Source: Cinnamomum chago
Taxonomy: Eukaryota; Streptophyta; Magnoliopsida; Laurales; Lauraceae
Assembly (NCBI GenBank): GCA_038049695.1
Contig: CP142455.1
Coordinates: 25,953,501-26,017,500 of the forward strand
Direction of reading: 5' to 3'
Length of the DNA: 64,000 nt
The notes under the pieces were generated by a model that made no database searches, was not told the DNA's origin, and was given only the letters and a program-made list of their open reading frames with translations. This document shows positions 33,585 through 40,828 of this stretch, piece by piece; the stretch's first letter is position 1; each line of letters opens with the position of its first letter. A program made the position numbers and the translations under genes.

Positions 33585-33593
33585 CTAGATGAA
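33585..33593. repeat. MULE target-site duplication, left copy
   Basis: ctagatgaa, repeated exactly at 40,820-40,828. Confidence 0.9.
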
Positions 33594-33742
33594 GAGAGCT
33601 GCTACCAACACACTGCATTTTGCTCTCCACACACTGCAATAGATTGTGACTAAAATGCCCACTTGTAAATTTACCAAAATGTATGAACTTCAGCCCTCCC
33701 ACACTACTTGAAATGCTATCTGCACACTGCATATTTTCCCTC
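33594..33742 (+). repeat. MULE left terminal inverted repeat
   Basis: The outer 45 bp pair well with 40,775-40,819. Shared cores gctctccacacactgca and ttttccct recur further in. Confidence 0.85.
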
Positions 33743-34086
33743 CACTTGAGACATCTGAACGTGGAGCGTTAAGGGTTTACTCCTCCTCTCCACTTCCTTC
33801 CATTCACTCCTCTGCATCATGAAATGAAGTTCTACTTCTTCCCGATTTTTACTGATCTTTACTTCCTCCCCCTTTCATCTTCTCTCTCGGTTTGAATCCT
33901 CACTTCATTCTCAATTGACTGCACCTCATTAATCTTGATTTCATTCAAAGTTGAAACTCAATTTGCTAGCATTCTTAATCAATGGACGAGCAAAAGGACA
34001 AGCAGAAGATGTCTCCCGATCATTCTAGGAGCGTCGAGGTAAGCATATTCATCACAAGCTTTGTAAATCGGAAGAGACGAATTGCT

Positions 34087-34268
34087 CGGCCCTGTATGTC
34101 CGACCGAATGTTATCTACGCGGCCTTTCAGGTCCGACCAGAGGTATTTTTCACGGCCCTAAAAGGCCGAACATAGGTAGTTTTCGCGGCACTACAGTGCT
34201 GATAATAAGAAAAATATACGGACATACAGGGCTGAACAATTGAATTTTGTCCGGATATTCAGAGCCGT
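34087..34268. repeat. palindromic 33-bp repeat array, left (transposase intron 1)
   Basis: Six cores of the form CGGcc(n)GnCCGA start near 34,087, 34,119, 34,153, 34,186, 34,219 and 34,252, spaced 32-34 bp. Examples are cggccctgtatgtccga and cggccctaaaaggccga. Between cores the sequence varies and is AT-rich. The array lies about 490 bp from the left end, wholly inside intron 1. Confidence 0.8.
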
Positions 34269-35685
34269 GCAGTTGTGTCATTTACGTATTCTAACAAAAT
34301 TGGTTCTATAGCAGTTTCATGCGCCTACTGAATGCAGCAAGGTTGGCTAGGATTGTGTGGTCGACTATAGTAATGAGTTTATCACCGAAGAGGTAATTAA
34401 TCGAGATGAATTATTCGATAGTTAAATTGATGTAGTCACTTTGTTCAATATGATTTTTTTTTGTTATGCGCAGATATTCACAAGTCGAGAATCCCTAATT
34501 AATTGGGCTCGTGATGTTGGGAGGAGAAATGGTTTCATTGTTGTGATTAAGACATCAGCAGCGCTCAACAAGAGAAATAAAAAACCAAGGCTGACCTTTG
34601 GGTGTGAGAGGAGTGGGTCTTATAGAGACACGAGGATTACTAAAGACGGGACTGGTGGGAAGAAATTGAAGCAGACTGGTTCGAAAAAATGCGGATGCCC
34701 ATTCACGTTACAAGGTAAAGTGGTTGGCTCAAATGAGGAATGGATGTTGCATGTAGTGTGTGGTGTGCATAATCATCCTGCTGCAGACTTTCTGGAAGGG
34801 CACTCATTTGCAGGGAGATTAACAAAGGATGAAACTTCAGTGCTAGTGGACATGTCCAAGAATATGGTTCGGCCAAATGATATCTTGGTGACACTGAAAC
34901 ATAGAAATGAGTTAAATGTAAGCACAATGAAGACCATTTACAATGCACGTCAAAGGCATAAAGTTGCGGAGAGGGCTGGACGGAATCAGATGCAGCAACT
35001 GTTGAAATTATTGGCGGAGCATGGTTACATTGAGTGGCATAGGAAATGTCCTACAATAGATACTGTCATTGACTTGTTCTTCACACACCCTACCAGCGTA
35101 GACCTCTTGCGTGCATTTCCTCATGTGTTGATAATGGACTGCACCTACAAGACCAATCGGTATCGAATGCCCTTATTGGAGATTGTTGGGGTTACATCCA
35201 CAGAGAAGACTTTTTCGGTATGCATTGTATATCTCCAGAATGAACGTGAAGATTGCTACTCATGGGCATTGGGTATTTTGCGCAAAGTTATTGACGATGG
35301 TGTTCTTCCTAGCGTTATCGTCACTGACAGAGAGATGACTTTAATGAACGCCATATCTATTGTTTTCCCCGGCGCCAAACATCTTTTATGTAGATGGCAT
35401 ATCAACAGAAATATCTTGGCTAAATGCAAGAAGTTGTTTGAGACGAAGGAAAAGTGGGACCGGTTTATAATGAGCTGGAACATGTTGGTCTCTTCATCCA
35501 CAGAGGAACATTACAATCTGCAATTCAACTTATTTCTAGAGGAGTTCATTACCTATCCTACAGCACTTCAGTATGTTAGAGTGTCTTGGTTAGATGCGTA
35601 CAAGGATAGATTTGTGGCTGCCTGGACGGACAAGGTCATGCATCTTGGGAACACTACTACAAACAGGGTGGAGAGTTCACATGCA

Positions 35686-35688
35686 TAG
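35686..35688 (+). other. premature TAG in transposase
   Basis: Falls right after RVESSHA and before LKRQLGSS, where CAG (Gln) is expected in the family. A C-to-T change explains it. Confidence 0.7.
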
Positions 35689-36479
35689 CTGAAACGGCAG
35701 CTTGGATCAAGTCAGGGGACTTTTGAAGACTCATGGATGAAGATGCACAACCTATTACTGCTGCAACATACAGATATAAAAGCATCATTTGAAAAAAGTA
35801 AGACGGTTATCCAACACAATTTCAAGCCTTCTGAATTCAAAGAACTTCGTGGGAACGTTTCTATATGTGCATTAGAGAAAATCTTGGCTGAGACGAAACG
35901 AGCATCATCCGTCGGTATTGATAGAGATGCTTGTGGCTGTGTACTTCGACGGACACATGGCCTACCTTGTGCTCATGAGATTGTAGAATACATAAGTGCT
36001 AGTCGCCCTATTCCTTTAGATCGCACGCATATGCATTAGCGCAAGCTTGACCTACTACATACCGCTTATGACCAAGACTCCAGTGTCAATTTGGATTGCA
36101 TGCCAGAGATAGATTTAATTGTTGAACAGTTCAAGGGCTATGATTCGAGAAAGAAGTTACAGATCTTGGATAAGCTTAGGGAGCTTGCAAAGCCTGAGAT
36201 GACCTCACTGATCGAGCCAGATTCGAAAACTAAATGTCGGGGGCGCCCCAAATTGAAATTGCACAACTCTACTAAACGTGAACCCTCGTCCTTTGATTAT
36301 GCCGAATCAGCTCAGGATAGTTACTCTCCTATCTTAAAGATGGAAGAGACTATTGTCAGCAGTGGGGCCTCTTTGGTGCCCGTGAAGAAGCTGATTCCTA
36401 AGCAAAAGGTCATCCGCACCCGAAATTTGAAGCCAACCACTTATATTAACACACTCCCAGATTGCTTAAGGCCTTATAT

Positions 36480-36876
36480 TCACCATGTAAAAGATGTCAA
36501 TGCGGATGGCAATTGTGGCTTTAGAGCCATTGCAGGGTTGATGGGACTTGGTGAGGATTCGTGGCAACAGGTACGGAAAGATCTCTCTAGAGAGTTGGTG
36601 ACTCATGCAGAACACTACAGACAACTATATGGATCACACCAAAGGGTTGATGAACTTCTCAATAGTATATCGTACCAAGGGGATTGCCCTCCATATGATC
36701 GATGGATGACGATGTCGGACATGGGACATCTAATTGCCTCGCACTATAACGTTGTCCTATACCATTTGTCAAATCAGCAATGCTTGACTTTTCTTCCTCT
36801 TCGATCGGTCCCTATTCCTACTGCTGCTAGACGGGAGATCGCAATCGGTTTTGTCAATCAAAACCACTTTGTTCAG
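36480..36876 (+). other. OTU protease domain within the MULE ORF
   Basis: DVNADGNCGFRAIA holds the OTU Asp and nucleophile Cys in the order D-x-x-x-D-G-N-C. The NQNHFVQV segment carries the catalytic His about 115 residues later. All catalytic residues are present, so the domain itself shows no active-site loss. Confidence 0.85.
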
Positions 36877-37126
36877 GTGATAATAGTAGATGCATAGATT
36901 CCCAAATTTTATTTTACTTGAAATGCCGTGACTCACTTGAACTCCTTCTTATATGTAGGTTTTCCTTGTACAGGGTCATCCAATTCCTCCTATTGTTACT
37001 AATTGGATTCGTCACCATCACCCTTCTGCAGATGGTTGGGATACAGCTTATCAATCTCGGATCCAATATTTCAGAGAGATTATAAGTCCATCAGTTGCCA
37101 CATGCGAAACCATCGATCTAGAATGA

Positions 37127-38037
37127 TTGTTATATTTTATAAGGATGTCAATGCGGATCCAATGTTTTATTGGCGGTTAATGCAATTGAGCATTTTGTAA
37201 ATAAAGATGAGAACATTTTCACTTTGTTTTATAAAAGAACATTCTATATCTCTTAATTGCATATAGCTTACGACAATTTCAACTGAGTGGTCCTGATATG
37301 AGATATAATATTTTGCTCGGCTCTGAGAAGCTGAGTTAAAACTATAATGTCGGCCCTGAGAGGCCGAGTAGACCAAATTTGGTCGGCACTGAGACGCCAA
37401 GAAGATAACATTTTATCGGCCCTGAGACGCCGACCATATTATCAATTATCGGCCCTGAGACACCGAGCAATCTACATTGTAACAAACCTGAAACCATACC
37501 AGTTTACAATGCTGTGTACATAGAAAACGACTTTCTTTATACATCAATACAAAATGCATCAATAAAAATGATATCTATAAAGTATCCAAAAAGGTGATAA
37601 AAAAGTTTTACATGTGGCACATCTCTGTTACCCAAACACGCTGCTGAAAGTGGGTTTACAAATATAGAGTCGGACCTGAGAGGCCGAGTAGACCTAATTC
37701 GGTCGGCCCTGAGACGCCGAGGAAAACACATTTTCTCGGCCCTGAGACGCCGAGCAATACAAAATGCTGTGTGTACATTATTTCAAACCTGAAACAATAC
37801 TAGTTTACAGATTACGTTATCTATTTCAAATAAATGCTGTGTACAAAAGCGACATCAATACAAAATGCAGCACAAAAAACGATATCCATAAAGTGGCCAA
37901 AAGATCGAAAGAAATTTTTACATAAACATTTATATCCATAAAGTTTTACATGTGGTACATCTCTGTTACCCATATAAAATTGCTGAAATTCAGTTTACAA
38001 CCATAAAAAAATACATATCACATGCTAAGTCCACATC
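37127..38037. other. intergenic centre of the MULE between convergent genes
   Basis: Non-coding. Two clusters of palindromic 33-bp repeats (see 37,315-37,754) lie inside an approximate 320-340-bp tandem duplication; for example, acatgtgg(c/t)acatctctgttaccca recurs at about 37,610 and 37,947. Confidence 0.7.
37315..37754. repeat. palindromic 33-bp repeat array, central
   Basis: Cores such as tcggccctgagacgccga start at about 37,315, 37,349, 37,381, 37,416, 37,449, then 37,670, 37,702 and 37,735, with 32-35 bp between neighbours. Each core is an imperfect palindrome, CGGC...GCCG. The second cluster is a copy of part of the first. Confidence 0.88.
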
Positions 38038-40063
38038 CTAGACCCCACGTCTAGCCCTGCGGCTGTAAGTGCGTGCCTCGCTCCGTGGCGGTCTATGAAC
38101 AAGATCTTCTGGATCGACTCCATCTAGGACCCTGTTGACGTCCTCAAGGGCCGTGTACAAGGCATCAGGATCTTGGATACTGAGAGTATGGCCTCTCCTC
38201 AGAATAGGCTGAATAATACTTTGGGCATTCACGATGCGCTGTTAATTAATCACATAATGAACAAATTAGAATGTTTGTACAGTTGGTTATACTTAATATG
38301 ATAGATATGATCGTCAAGGATCGTACCAAACGTGGGTCAATAGAAGAGCTGCCCATAGAATCTTGAACACGCGGATTAAACGTGGAGCGATGTGCAGGGT
38401 TCTGAATGATTGGATGCGACACTCGGAGGAACCATTCCATATAATTGGGTGCACAGTCCCATGGGTGTGACGCAGCCACACCACGCTCCATCGGAGACAG
38501 GACGTGGTTATGCCACCTCTCCCATATTTGATCCAAGTAATTGTAAGCGATCCGATATTGATTTGCGGTGGCACCCCTACTGGCGCGCTGTGGAGCTAGT
38601 GGAGTGGGGGGAATGCGTTGGACCCTACCAAACTGCCTAAGCACCCGATCAGGATGATATGGTTCTACGATGTCCATGCACTTAATACAGCCAGTATAAT
38701 AAGCAACCTCGTGAAAGGGGTGTTCTGCCCTATGCTCTCTATAGGGGTCCCACACCACCTGCAACATTAATCGACAAATGGTTACGTTAAATTATATGAT
38801 ACTCATTTAAATATTTTTGGAATTTATAACTTATAAGAACTGACCTCATGGGCACCAAGATCGTCAAGTGCCTCTCATAATGACTGCAAGTTGGACATTT
38901 GGTCCCCAGACTCTCTTCGTGGCACCCAGCGATGCACCCGCGGTAAATTTTCTGTGTATGTGCGGTTTTGGTGAGGCCTACACCTGGGGAAATGCTCGTA
39001 AATCCATGCCTCTAGTAGAGTAAGGTATCCTGCAATCTGCTTGACACCACTCAGAGTAGCAAACCCCAACTGTCGTTATAGGTGAGCAAGCGCACCAGCT
39101 CCCCAAGCATAGGTGCGTGCCTCATCGAAGTTCATTAGCAGCCTTAGATAGACCACTGGAACCCTCGTGCCAGTCTTGTCTGCGAAGAGTGTACAGCCCA
39201 AGAGATACAATAGATATGCTCTTGCGGCATGCCTAATGTGCTCTTCTGGATCCGCATCGGTCACGTCTCCGTATAGGTCCCTCAACCACTCTAGTCTAAC
39301 CGACGAGCCCCGCACCCCTACTAACTCTTCGTGTGCCTGCTGGGATGTGACCCCAAGACCATGCTTTACAAGTGTCTTTGATCGCTCAAATGACAGTTGC
39401 TCCACTGATACAGATTTTCCAGTGACCGAGATCCCAAGAATGGTGCCCACGTCATCAAGGGTAATCGTCATTTCACCAAAAGGCATGTGGAATGTGTTTG
39501 TCTCAGGCTGCCATCTTTCCACAAATGCTGACATCATGTTCTTGTTGATGGAACGATAAGATGTCGCCACCAATGGAGCCAACCCCGAACGGCCAATGAG
39601 ACGACTAAAAATCGTATTCTGCCTTCCCTCTGAATTCCATGCCCATTCAGTGATTTTTTGGCCATGGCTTATGCATTTAAGTGGCGGTCTCTCCTGCAAA
39701 ACGAAATACATAACAAATTAGTGAAGATAATAAAATTTTCATCACAGATTAAAACATGTTAACCAAGATTAAACACAAATCTGCTGCTGCCAAATACTTG
39801 CAGCAATATGCGTCCTGAAACTAGGTAGCAGGCTCAAACTTGTAGGCCCCCCGGGAATATCTCCAGTCCTATAATGAGCAGCAGAAGAAGTTTGTTGACA
39901 TACTTCTTCTGACGGTTCGGAAACTTCGGTCTCCACTTGGGCTTCGGGTTGTTCTTCAACTACTTCTTCGTCATCATCGACCTCATCAGCAACAAACCTC
40001 TGACGGCGTCTCCTGTTCGACGCTGTGGGTCGAGTCCTAAATGTACCCGGCACATCCATATAT
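38038..40063 (-). pseudogene. plant mobile domain (PMD, MAIL1/MAIN-like) protein carried by the MULE
   Basis: Minus-strand exons 39,775-40,063, 38,845-39,693, 38,327-38,758 and 38,038-38,238, with GT-AG borders and phase 0 joins. An untranslated first exon probably ends at 40,492 (donor gtgagt). The start is MDVPGTFRTRPTASN, followed by a basic RRRRQR and an acidic DEVDDDEEVVEEQPE tract. The PMD core has WQPETNTFHMPFGEMTITLDD, VGTILGISVTG, AYLLYLLGCTLFADK and GYLTLLEAWIYEHFP. Exon 3 has CIKCMDIVEPYHPDRVLRQF, and the tail is Arg-rich. Two stops break exon 2: TAA at 39,076 (before RQLGF) and TGA at 38,875 (before EALDDLGAHE). PMD proteins act in silencing and genome stability in host plants and also occur in transposons; the role in the element is unknown. 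Confidence 0.87.
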
Positions 40064-40114
40064 CTGGAAAAAGAAAATATCAGTACATAGTTCAGCACTG
40101 AGTCACAGACCATT

Positions 40115-40345
40115 CGACCCTGACTATCCGTGTGGAAAATATAGTTTCGGCGTTACAGATCCGTGAAATTAGGTTTTGATCGGACACACAGTGCCGAGAG
40201 ATGACACTCTATTCGGTTCATTGATGCAGAGAAAAGTTTTTCCTCTCGGCCCCATACTACCGAGATAATTCCATATATGCGGATCATCGAGGCCGAAATT
40301 AATCTCTGTTTTCGGACCCATGGTGCCGAACGGGTTCTTCTTACT
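40115..40345. repeat. palindromic 33-bp repeat array, right (PMD gene intron 1)
   Basis: Seven units start at 40,115, 40,148, 40,181, 40,214, 40,247, 40,280 and 40,313, exactly 33 bp apart. Cores include cggacacacagtgccga, cggccccatactaccga and cggacccatggtgccga. The unit at 40,214 is degraded. The array's outer edge is about 490 bp from the right end, mirroring the left array. Confidence 0.88.
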
Positions 40346-40491
40346 GCCATTAAAACGATGATGATGGATGGAGTAATGGGGGATGCAAAGGTGAATGAGG
40401 GAGGTAAAAAACTTTGGAAAAACCAAATCTTTGATCTTAAAGCAAAACTACAGACATTTCTAATCAATTAAAACAAATCGAAATCACTCAC

Positions 40492-40679
40492 GGAGGTTGG
40501 AAAGTCGACGATTCACAGTAATGCAGTTTGATGAAGAAGGTAAGAAGAGAGAGATGACTGAACACGAGGTGCGGCGTTTACGTCCGGGTGGAGGCGCTCG
40601 TCGAGATCATCTTCGATGTGGAGGGTGCAGCAAAAGACTGTTTTCAGAACGTGAAATGGGAGGGAAGAATGCAGAGTGT
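40492..40679 (-). other. probable 5' untranslated exon of the PMD gene
   Basis: The minus strand has a donor ccaacctcc|gtgagt at 40,491/40,492, facing the acceptor ttttccag before the PMD start codon. Transcription would begin near the right TIR. No start codon in this exon is in frame. The upstream limit is a guess. Confidence 0.4.
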
Positions 40680-40819
40680 AGGGAGTAGTTTCATCAAGTC
40701 CAGCGATGGGTGTTTTAGGGAAAATGTAGAGTGTGGAGAGCAAATCCCACACTGAAGACCACTGTGTAAAGAGATGCAGTGTGTGGAGAGCAAATCCCAG
40801 TGTGCAGGTAGCAGCTCTC
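40680..40819 (-). repeat. MULE right terminal inverted repeat
   Basis: Reads gagagctgctacc inward on the minus strand; repeats tgtggagagcaaatccca twice. Confidence 0.85.
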
Positions 40820-40828
40820 CTAGATGAA
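40820..40828. repeat. MULE target-site duplication, right copy
   Basis: ctagatgaa, identical to 33,585-33,593. Confidence 0.9.

Follow-up and report, generated by a model that had tools for sequence, protein, structure and literature searches.

A Mutator-like element family of Cinnamomum chago combining a FAR1-MULE-OTU transposase, a convergent plant mobile domain gene and spaced palindrome arrays

Positions 33594-40819 of the window (the whole stretch of 64,000 nucleotides of Cinnamomum chago contig CP142455.1 analysed here) hold a Mutator-like element (MULE) with terminal inverted repeats (TIRs), a target site duplication (TSD) and two convergent genes. The 45-bp TIRs (33594-33638 versus 40775-40819) match at 40 of 45 positions and lie within a perfect 9-bp TSD, ctagatgaa. 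On the plus strand, a gene of 4 exons and 901 amino acids encodes a transposase with FAR1 and MULE domains (Pfam) and an OTU C-terminus, and on the minus strand a gene of 4 exons and 586 amino acids, encoding a plant mobile domain (PMD) protein, converges with it. The splice models combine reading frames with GT..AG sites and are sequence-based predictions. An earlier, sequence-only reading of this DNA had claimed the TIRs, the perfect 9-bp TSD and two convergent spliced genes, FAR1-MULE-OTU on the plus strand and PMD on the minus strand; the sequence, Pfam and an OTU profile confirm these claims, and the element coordinates it gave are exact. The parts of the element, with strand where one applies and the basis in brackets, are as follows.

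33585..33593, left target site duplication ctagatgaa (sequence)
33594..33638, plus, left terminal inverted repeat, 45 bp (40/45 match)
33982..34038, plus, transposase-OTU exon 1 (GT..AG, in frame)
34087..34267, array 1, CGG-N10-CCG in a 33-bp register, within transposase intron 1 (repeat analysis)
34315..34392, plus, transposase-OTU exon 2, with 1 in-frame stop in the window copy (gene model)
34474..36876, plus, transposase-OTU exon 3: FAR1 DNA-binding, MULE DDE core, SWIM-like zinc motif, OTU (Pfam, profile, gene model)
35686 and 36037, plus, in-frame TAG in exon 3 of the window copy (gene model)
36514-36516, plus, OTU Cys codon (in exon 3)
36865-36867, plus, OTU His codon (in exon 3)
36959..37126, plus, transposase-OTU exon 4, C-terminal tail (gene model)
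37351..37752, array 2, CGG-N10-CCG with a 33-bp period, between the 3' ends of both genes (repeat analysis)
38038..38238, minus, PMD gene exon 4 (gene model)
38327..38758, minus, PMD gene exon 3, second part of the PMD core (Pfam, gene model)
38845..39693, minus, PMD gene exon 2, PMD core, with 2 in-frame stops in the window copy (Pfam, gene model)
39781..40059, minus, PMD gene exon 1, splice donor AT in the window copy (gene model)
40148..40328, array 3, CGG-N10-CCG, upstream of the PMD start codon (palindrome positions; below the lag-33 threshold in the window copy)
40775..40819, minus, right terminal inverted repeat, 45 bp (sequence)
40820..40828, right target site duplication ctagatgaa (sequence)

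Pfam places FAR1 (E = 2e-7), MULE PF10551 (E = 1.4e-27) and PF00872 (E = 4.4e-6) in the transposase gene, and PMD PF10536 in the minus-strand gene (E = 2.2e-39 and 3.9e-12; 136 and 46.5 bits versus a cut-off of 34.9). The transposase also contains D-D-E positions and a C-x-C...C-x-H stretch that we take to be SWIM-like; Pfam listed no SWIM. The closest relatives of the PMD protein show 87% (Cinnamomum micranthum) and 91% (another relative) identity. We observe three internal stops in the window transposase reading and two in the PMD reading, with the donor of PMD intron 1 changed from GT to AT, and these lesions rule out a complete active element at this position. The window copy is evidently an inactivated member of a recently active plant MULE family. 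The sequence-only reading had called it a complete MULE, a description that is valid for structure only, since the copy is inactive; neither the decay nor the palindrome arrays were part of that reading.

Searching the genome (1.06 Gb, 14 contigs) with the element DNA, we scored 22 copies among 1240 candidates and analysed 21, excluding C1:16930014, where the match is to the first half of the element only. Perfect 9-bp TSDs, each at a different site, flank 19 of the 21 copies, the remaining two being one in which two extra bases accompany the 9-bp repeat and one without the first 19 bp of the TIR. The 20 copies other than the window copy are 97.6-99.86% identical in pairwise comparison, and since 19 of 21 near-identical copies carry perfect 9-bp TSDs at different sites, the element boundaries are not due to chance. 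Both genes are fully open, with all six introns GT..AG, in 10 of the 21 copies; one of these is the copy with the shortened TIR, leaving nine with everything in place, and in some copies PMD is broken or partly deleted. Judging from these near-identical copies with TSDs at differing sites, the family is real and has probably been mobile, a lineage that keeps both genes between matching TIRs, as the sequence-only reading had proposed to check.

The pairing extends beyond this set, with three subfamilies all keeping the convergent transposase-OTU/PMD arrangement. Next to subfamily I, to which the window element belongs, subfamily II (L052) shows 91% transposase and 92% PMD exon 2 identity, a 9-bp TSD and a similar TIR, while subfamily III (L053, L054) shows 59-69% transposase and about 60% PMD identity, a differing TIR (GGGGCTTGCTATTGGC...) and an 8-bp TSD in L054, the only copy readable at both ends. 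At least 67 of 150 OTU matches (versus 117 PMD loci) have a PMD within 8 kb, and all 67 of these PMDs are convergent and downstream. With a subfamily III PMD query, 11 of the 17 most diverged OTU matches have a PMD as well (one already counted), raising the number to at least 77 of 150. Among the matches listed, 40 five-prime ends include 34 with OTU, 29 with PMD, 26 with both and 3 with neither. Copies lacking one of the genes had been named as a result that would speak against the pairing; the main lineage does not show this outcome, but some relatives lack PMD or carry a decayed one. In a 71% relative, L055, PMD is decayed, and in a 69% relative the 3.3 kb that were read beyond the OTU contain no PMD. 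As separate observations, the subfamily III PMD is very abundant genome-wide (125 matches scored among 3190 candidates), and the subfamily III copy L054 carries a 183-bp in-frame tandem duplication within its MULE part (L054:1787-2154).

Selection on the two genes was estimated as dN/dS by the Nei-Gojobori method, comparing subfamilies I and II with one copy each. The values are 0.16 (FAR1), 0.21 (MULE core) and 0.14 (SWIM part) for the transposase, 0.20 (0.10-0.37) for OTU, and 0.15 (0.08-0.26), 0.28 (0.14-0.63) and 0.46 (0.22-0.85) for PMD exon 2, exon 3 and the N-terminal exon, respectively. At the subfamily level, OTU and PMD are thus under about the same constraint as the transposase. Comparisons of I and II with III give 0.11-0.20 where defined, with synonymous sites near saturation and 5 of 14 cells undefined, including OTU for I versus III. 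Higher values are seen within III (L053 versus L054; 0.19-0.51), with wide intervals, some of which reach 1, and comparisons with the decayed window copy are noisy (0.06-2.56). The OTU and the PMD core are, by this measure, under purifying selection at the subfamily level, and neutral evolution of the two (OTU 0.20; PMD 0.15-0.28), which had been put forward as a refuting outcome, is not what we find.

The assignment of the transposase C-terminus to the OTU domain is supported by profile comparison. A single OTU sequence gave no significant match among solved structures, while a profile of 14 OTU stretches from the element and its relatives matched OTUD5 (5.4e-6), VCPIP1 (3.3e-4), OTUD3 (0.0019) and OTUD1 (0.008). 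The same profile matched two chains named RNA-dependent RNA polymerase (3.1e-4 and 0.0017), which we take to be viral OTU parts. Across 27 relatives, D95 and G96 (of DGNC), R101 and H215 are present in all 27 and the catalytic C98 in 24, and an AlphaFold2 model of the region has block pLDDT values mostly of 80-97 past residue 70 (whole-model mean 74.9; pTM 0.64).

MULE-OTU relatives, some with FAR1, occur in Camellia, Actinidia, Citrus, Melia, Rosaceae, Rhododendron, Perilla, Platanthera, Tripterygium and Cannabis. In the tea plant, OTU and PMD proteins share at least five scaffold lengths (36 versus 49 scaffolds, among the matches listed), where about one would be expected by chance for a genome of 3.1 Gb; this overlap is suggestive of co-location only. 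Several single proteins stand out in their own right. P0001 is a transcript-derived FAR1-MULE-OTU protein of 951 amino acids without stops, 68% identical to the OTU region of the element, which suggests transcription of a relative. This protein is almost the same as the 71% relative at L055 and is possibly a host-kept gene. In a predicted protein of Rhododendron griersonianum (P0078), the C-terminal half of the OTU module directly adjoins and is fused to PMD in a single reading frame. Three predicted Rosaceae proteins (P0035, P0045 and P0046) join a SET histone-methyltransferase-like domain to MULE and an OTU-like C-terminus, and may be either real fusions or gene-model artefacts.

With respect to its non-coding parts, the element carries CGG-N10-CCG palindromes (mostly TCGG...CCGA) in a 33-bp register. 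They occupy three sites, namely the first intron of the transposase gene, the stretch that separates the 3' ends of the genes, and the region upstream of the PMD start. We observe 15 such palindromes in the window element, 12 in subfamily II and 9 and 6 in subfamily III, compared with averages of 0.2-0.5 and at most 3 over 300 shuffles. Other gap lengths from 4 to 24 occur at most twice each in the window element, the remaining 56.8 kb of the window hold two N10 forms, and each of the 21 copies has 13-18. Arrays with the 33-bp period are present in all three subfamilies: lag 33 is the best among lags 15-80 in five of six elements (three from I, which are not independent, one from II and two from III), and in the sixth lag 66 comes first, followed by 33. 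A 33-bp period is reported by Tandem Repeats Finder in L052, L053, L054 and, for the middle site only, the window element. The third site was not visible in L053, which has no alignment to L054 past about 7219. While the CGG/CCG arms are constant, the ten-base core varies by site and subfamily (CCCTGAGACG in I site 2, ACATTAAGGT in III site 1, CACTGTGTTT in III site 2), and array copy number varies between elements. The ratio of observed to expected CpG is 1.2-1.3 in the arrays versus 0.66-0.75 in coding and other non-coding parts. Two candidates for departures from this pattern were rejected: L057, considered as an array without PMD, has a PMD 5.9 kb downstream, and a C/T-rich repeat of 31-36 bp in L055 is not the palindrome. 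Separately, gtgtggagagcaaatccca occurs twice at the right end (window 40730-40800), one copy inside the TIR and the other just inward, and may be a binding site for the transposase, separate from the arrays.

An arrangement of this kind has a precedent in VANDAL elements, as described in the parts consulted of the papers cited here and below. VANC proteins of VANDAL MULEs carry DUF1985 (PMC5735166), bind short motifs and cause loss of DNA methylation, and the motif-bearing repeats, located upstream of VANA and in introns of VANB and VANC (PMC5735166), change fast between relatives (PMC5735166, PMC10398659). Results on VANC structure and its interaction with target DNA are mentioned as unpublished (PMC12859917), and Ulp1 proteases in VANDAL-type MULEs have been reviewed and offer a protease parallel (PMC13317346). 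The PMD proteins MAIN and MAIL1 silence transposable elements (TEs) together with PP7L (PMC8616336, PMC5418596), and fusion of PMD with the transposase in grass and Amborella MULEs, as well as capture of host PMD-C genes, is on record (PMC5418596). We found a weak DUF1985 match in 16 of 30 PMD proteins scanned (best E = 1.4e-5); the PMD profile gave nothing below E = 0.5 against solved structures.

While the structure of the element is firm as far as its sequence goes, its function we infer. The explanation that we favour, at a probability of roughly 0.4, is a MULE with a VANC-like anti-silencing pair of PMD and arrays plus an OTU module. The transposase would bind the TIRs and mobilise the element through a cut-and-paste mechanism; PMD, alone or within a complex, would bind the CpG-containing palindrome arrays and, like VANC at VANDAL arrays, keep off or remove silencing marks along the element; and the OTU part, as a putative deubiquitinase, would stabilise the transposase or, during transposition, remove ubiquitin from silencing factors or chromatin of the host. 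A VANC-like role is the best single guess for PMD because of the VANC precedent, the DUF1985 matches and the position of the arrays. It also fits that array 2 was not seen in the two relatives with a decayed PMD or none found, L055 and L056 (two cases, with 3.5 kb of each read). We consider doubtful the wider proposal that PMD and DUF1985/VANC form one superfamily of sequence-specific anti-silencing proteins, with PMD reading CGG-N10-CCG on the 33-bp register and OTU stripping ubiquitin from host chromatin.

Several observations weigh against these proposals. The PMD-DUF1985 match is weak, covering about 50 residues inside the PMD match in P0092 and staying below the cut-off in the window PMD exon (E = 0.036; 14.5 bits versus 35.1), and the search for a DUF1985 gene found none in the genome, though the control genomes yielded none either and are thus uninformative as a control. 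Known VANC motifs (YAGTATTAY, AGTTGTCC) differ from CGG-N10-CCG (PMC5735166). Since the arms are identical in all three subfamilies and only core and copy number vary, protein-target coevolution is without support. Gap specificity is less clean at the L053 locus, with six scattered CGG-N24-CCG, than in the window copy, and one of nine N10 sites in L054 lies outside the arrays. Slower CpG decay, which would mark arrays protected from methylation, was sought and is not seen (19/1071 in arrays, 18/964 in other non-coding parts, 71/3197 in coding parts); with decay about equal elsewhere, the arrays show no sign of staying unmethylated. For the OTU part, the Pfam OTU model had no match in the element and otubain matched at E = 0.16 only; it is a candidate deubiquitinase fused to the transposase, with catalysis predicted from sequence. 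Finally, the palindrome may just as well be recognised by FAR1 or, alternatively, by a host factor.

This last point leads to a possible alternative, to which we give somewhat less credence, in which the arrays are subterminal or promoter sites for the transposase FAR1 domain or a host factor, and PMD is a decoy without DNA specificity that disturbs MAIN/MAIL1-PP7L. The subterminal sites of the CACTA element Spm, bound by TnpA, are a parallel. Arrays 1 and 3 adjoin the two gene starts, at about 0.5-0.7 kb inward of the nearer element end, and the Pfam name of FAR1 denotes DNA binding, yet array 2 sits mid-element between the gene 3' ends, distant from the termini, the TIRs carry no CGG-N10-CCG, and array 2 was not seen in the 3.5 kb read of each of L055 and L056, whose PMD is decayed or was not found, in keeping with PMD as the reader. 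The decoy part agrees with the silencing of TEs by MAIN and MAIL1 with PP7L and with the suggestion that TE-borne PMDs act in counter-silencing (PMC8616336, PMC5418596). It is unlikely that we are dealing with an ordinary MULE whose second gene does another element-level job (reinsertion, timing or host localisation), with arrays serving as insulators or small-RNA sources: a role of PMD in transposons is not established in the consulted parts of PMC8616336 and PMC5418596, but this view gives no reason why CGG-N10-CCG should be so strictly spaced at corresponding positions of three subfamilies. Capture of gene fragments is frequent in MULEs (PMC8616336, PMC5418596), PMD is damaged in part of the copies and array copy number is variable, as would be seen if PMD and OTU were passenger host fragments, acquired by Pack-MULE-like transduplication, and the arrays neutral tandem repeats. 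We reject this passenger view as very improbable, given dN/dS values of OTU and the PMD core well below 1 between subfamilies and intact PMD and transposase models together in 10 of 21 copies; the same arrangement in three subfamilies, with palindrome spacing far above shuffles in each, also speaks against it.

As regards known systems, seven groups of plant MULEs (MULE-Solanaceae_1, VANDAL, MuDR-9_OS, MULE-Monocots, MDR, MUDRAVI2 and MUDR) have PMD in Table 1 of Dupeyron et al. (2019, PMC6446971), antisense in several. These are plant MULEs, mostly with a SWIM-type zinc finger, a PMD open reading frame and TSDs of 9 bp (once 9-10 bp) where given, but none in the table joins FAR1, a fused OTU and PMD. 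FAR1 appears in groups 1, 35 and 36 (Jittery, N-terminal) and, within group 50, in an oomycete subgroup, with no PMD in those rows, and OTU ('Ovarian Tumour Gene') in MuDR-6_HM of a cnidarian only (PMC6446971). With the Jittery group and FAR1/FHY3-type proteins the element shares the N-terminal FAR1, the SWIM-like motif and the MULE core; the Jittery plant subgroup differs in its TSD (8 bp or unstated; here subfamilies I and II have 9 bp, and the one III copy read has 8 bp) and in having no PMD in that table. For a placement in the Jittery group, the FAR1 N-terminus is the one feature that agrees. VANDAL21 and VANDAL6 with VANC share with it a MULE carrying an extra gene, tandem arrays of short motifs in introns and upstream, and gain and loss of units (PMC5735166, PMC10398659), besides the weak DUF1985 matches; in contrast, the VANC motif is unrelated to the palindromic one here, OTU is not mentioned for VANC in the parts consulted, and the VANC-like function here is a prediction from sequence. 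TIRs do not clearly separate the element from VANDALs, since these are called non-TIR in one source (PMC13317346) and listed with TIRs of 46-174 bp in another (PMC6446971). MAIN and MAIL1 have PMD PF10536 in common with the element by domain name, and are host genes that silence TEs, in contrast to the element-encoded gene.

The sequence-only reading knew of no description of this combination, and FAR1 with OTU and an antisense PMD is indeed in no group of the PMC6446971 table, although that table already includes several groups with a PMD in antisense to their MULE transposase. Its suggestion of an anti-silencing role coincides with our best guess, but PMD as an anti-silencing or counter-silencing module of TEs has already been proposed (PMC5418596, PMC8616336), and VANDAL/VANC is a closer precedent than the MuDR that it named. 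In the open-access literature searched (titles and abstract openings of the papers listed), we found nothing describing FAR1-OTU with PMD or PMD with motif arrays, which leaves absence unproven. Two things are new as far as searched: the pairing of FAR1-OTU with PMD inside proven termini, backed by evidence of selection, and the arrays of spaced palindromes; the finding is real, holds at the level of the family and was partly foreseen in print.

In the parts of the literature consulted, sequence-specific anti-silencing by a transposon is described for VANC of Arabidopsis VANDAL elements only. A second MULE lineage with motif arrays beside PMD turns the idea that PMD is anti-silencing into a direct question, namely whether PMD binds CGG-N10-CCG, and it adds a candidate deubiquitinase fused to a transposase. 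Binding of PMD to the arrays, if true, would have a bearing on the question why PMD proteins of the host take part in silencing, and if PMD and VANC do belong to one superfamily, the host silencing factors MAIN and MAIL1 would be relatives of an anti-silencing protein.

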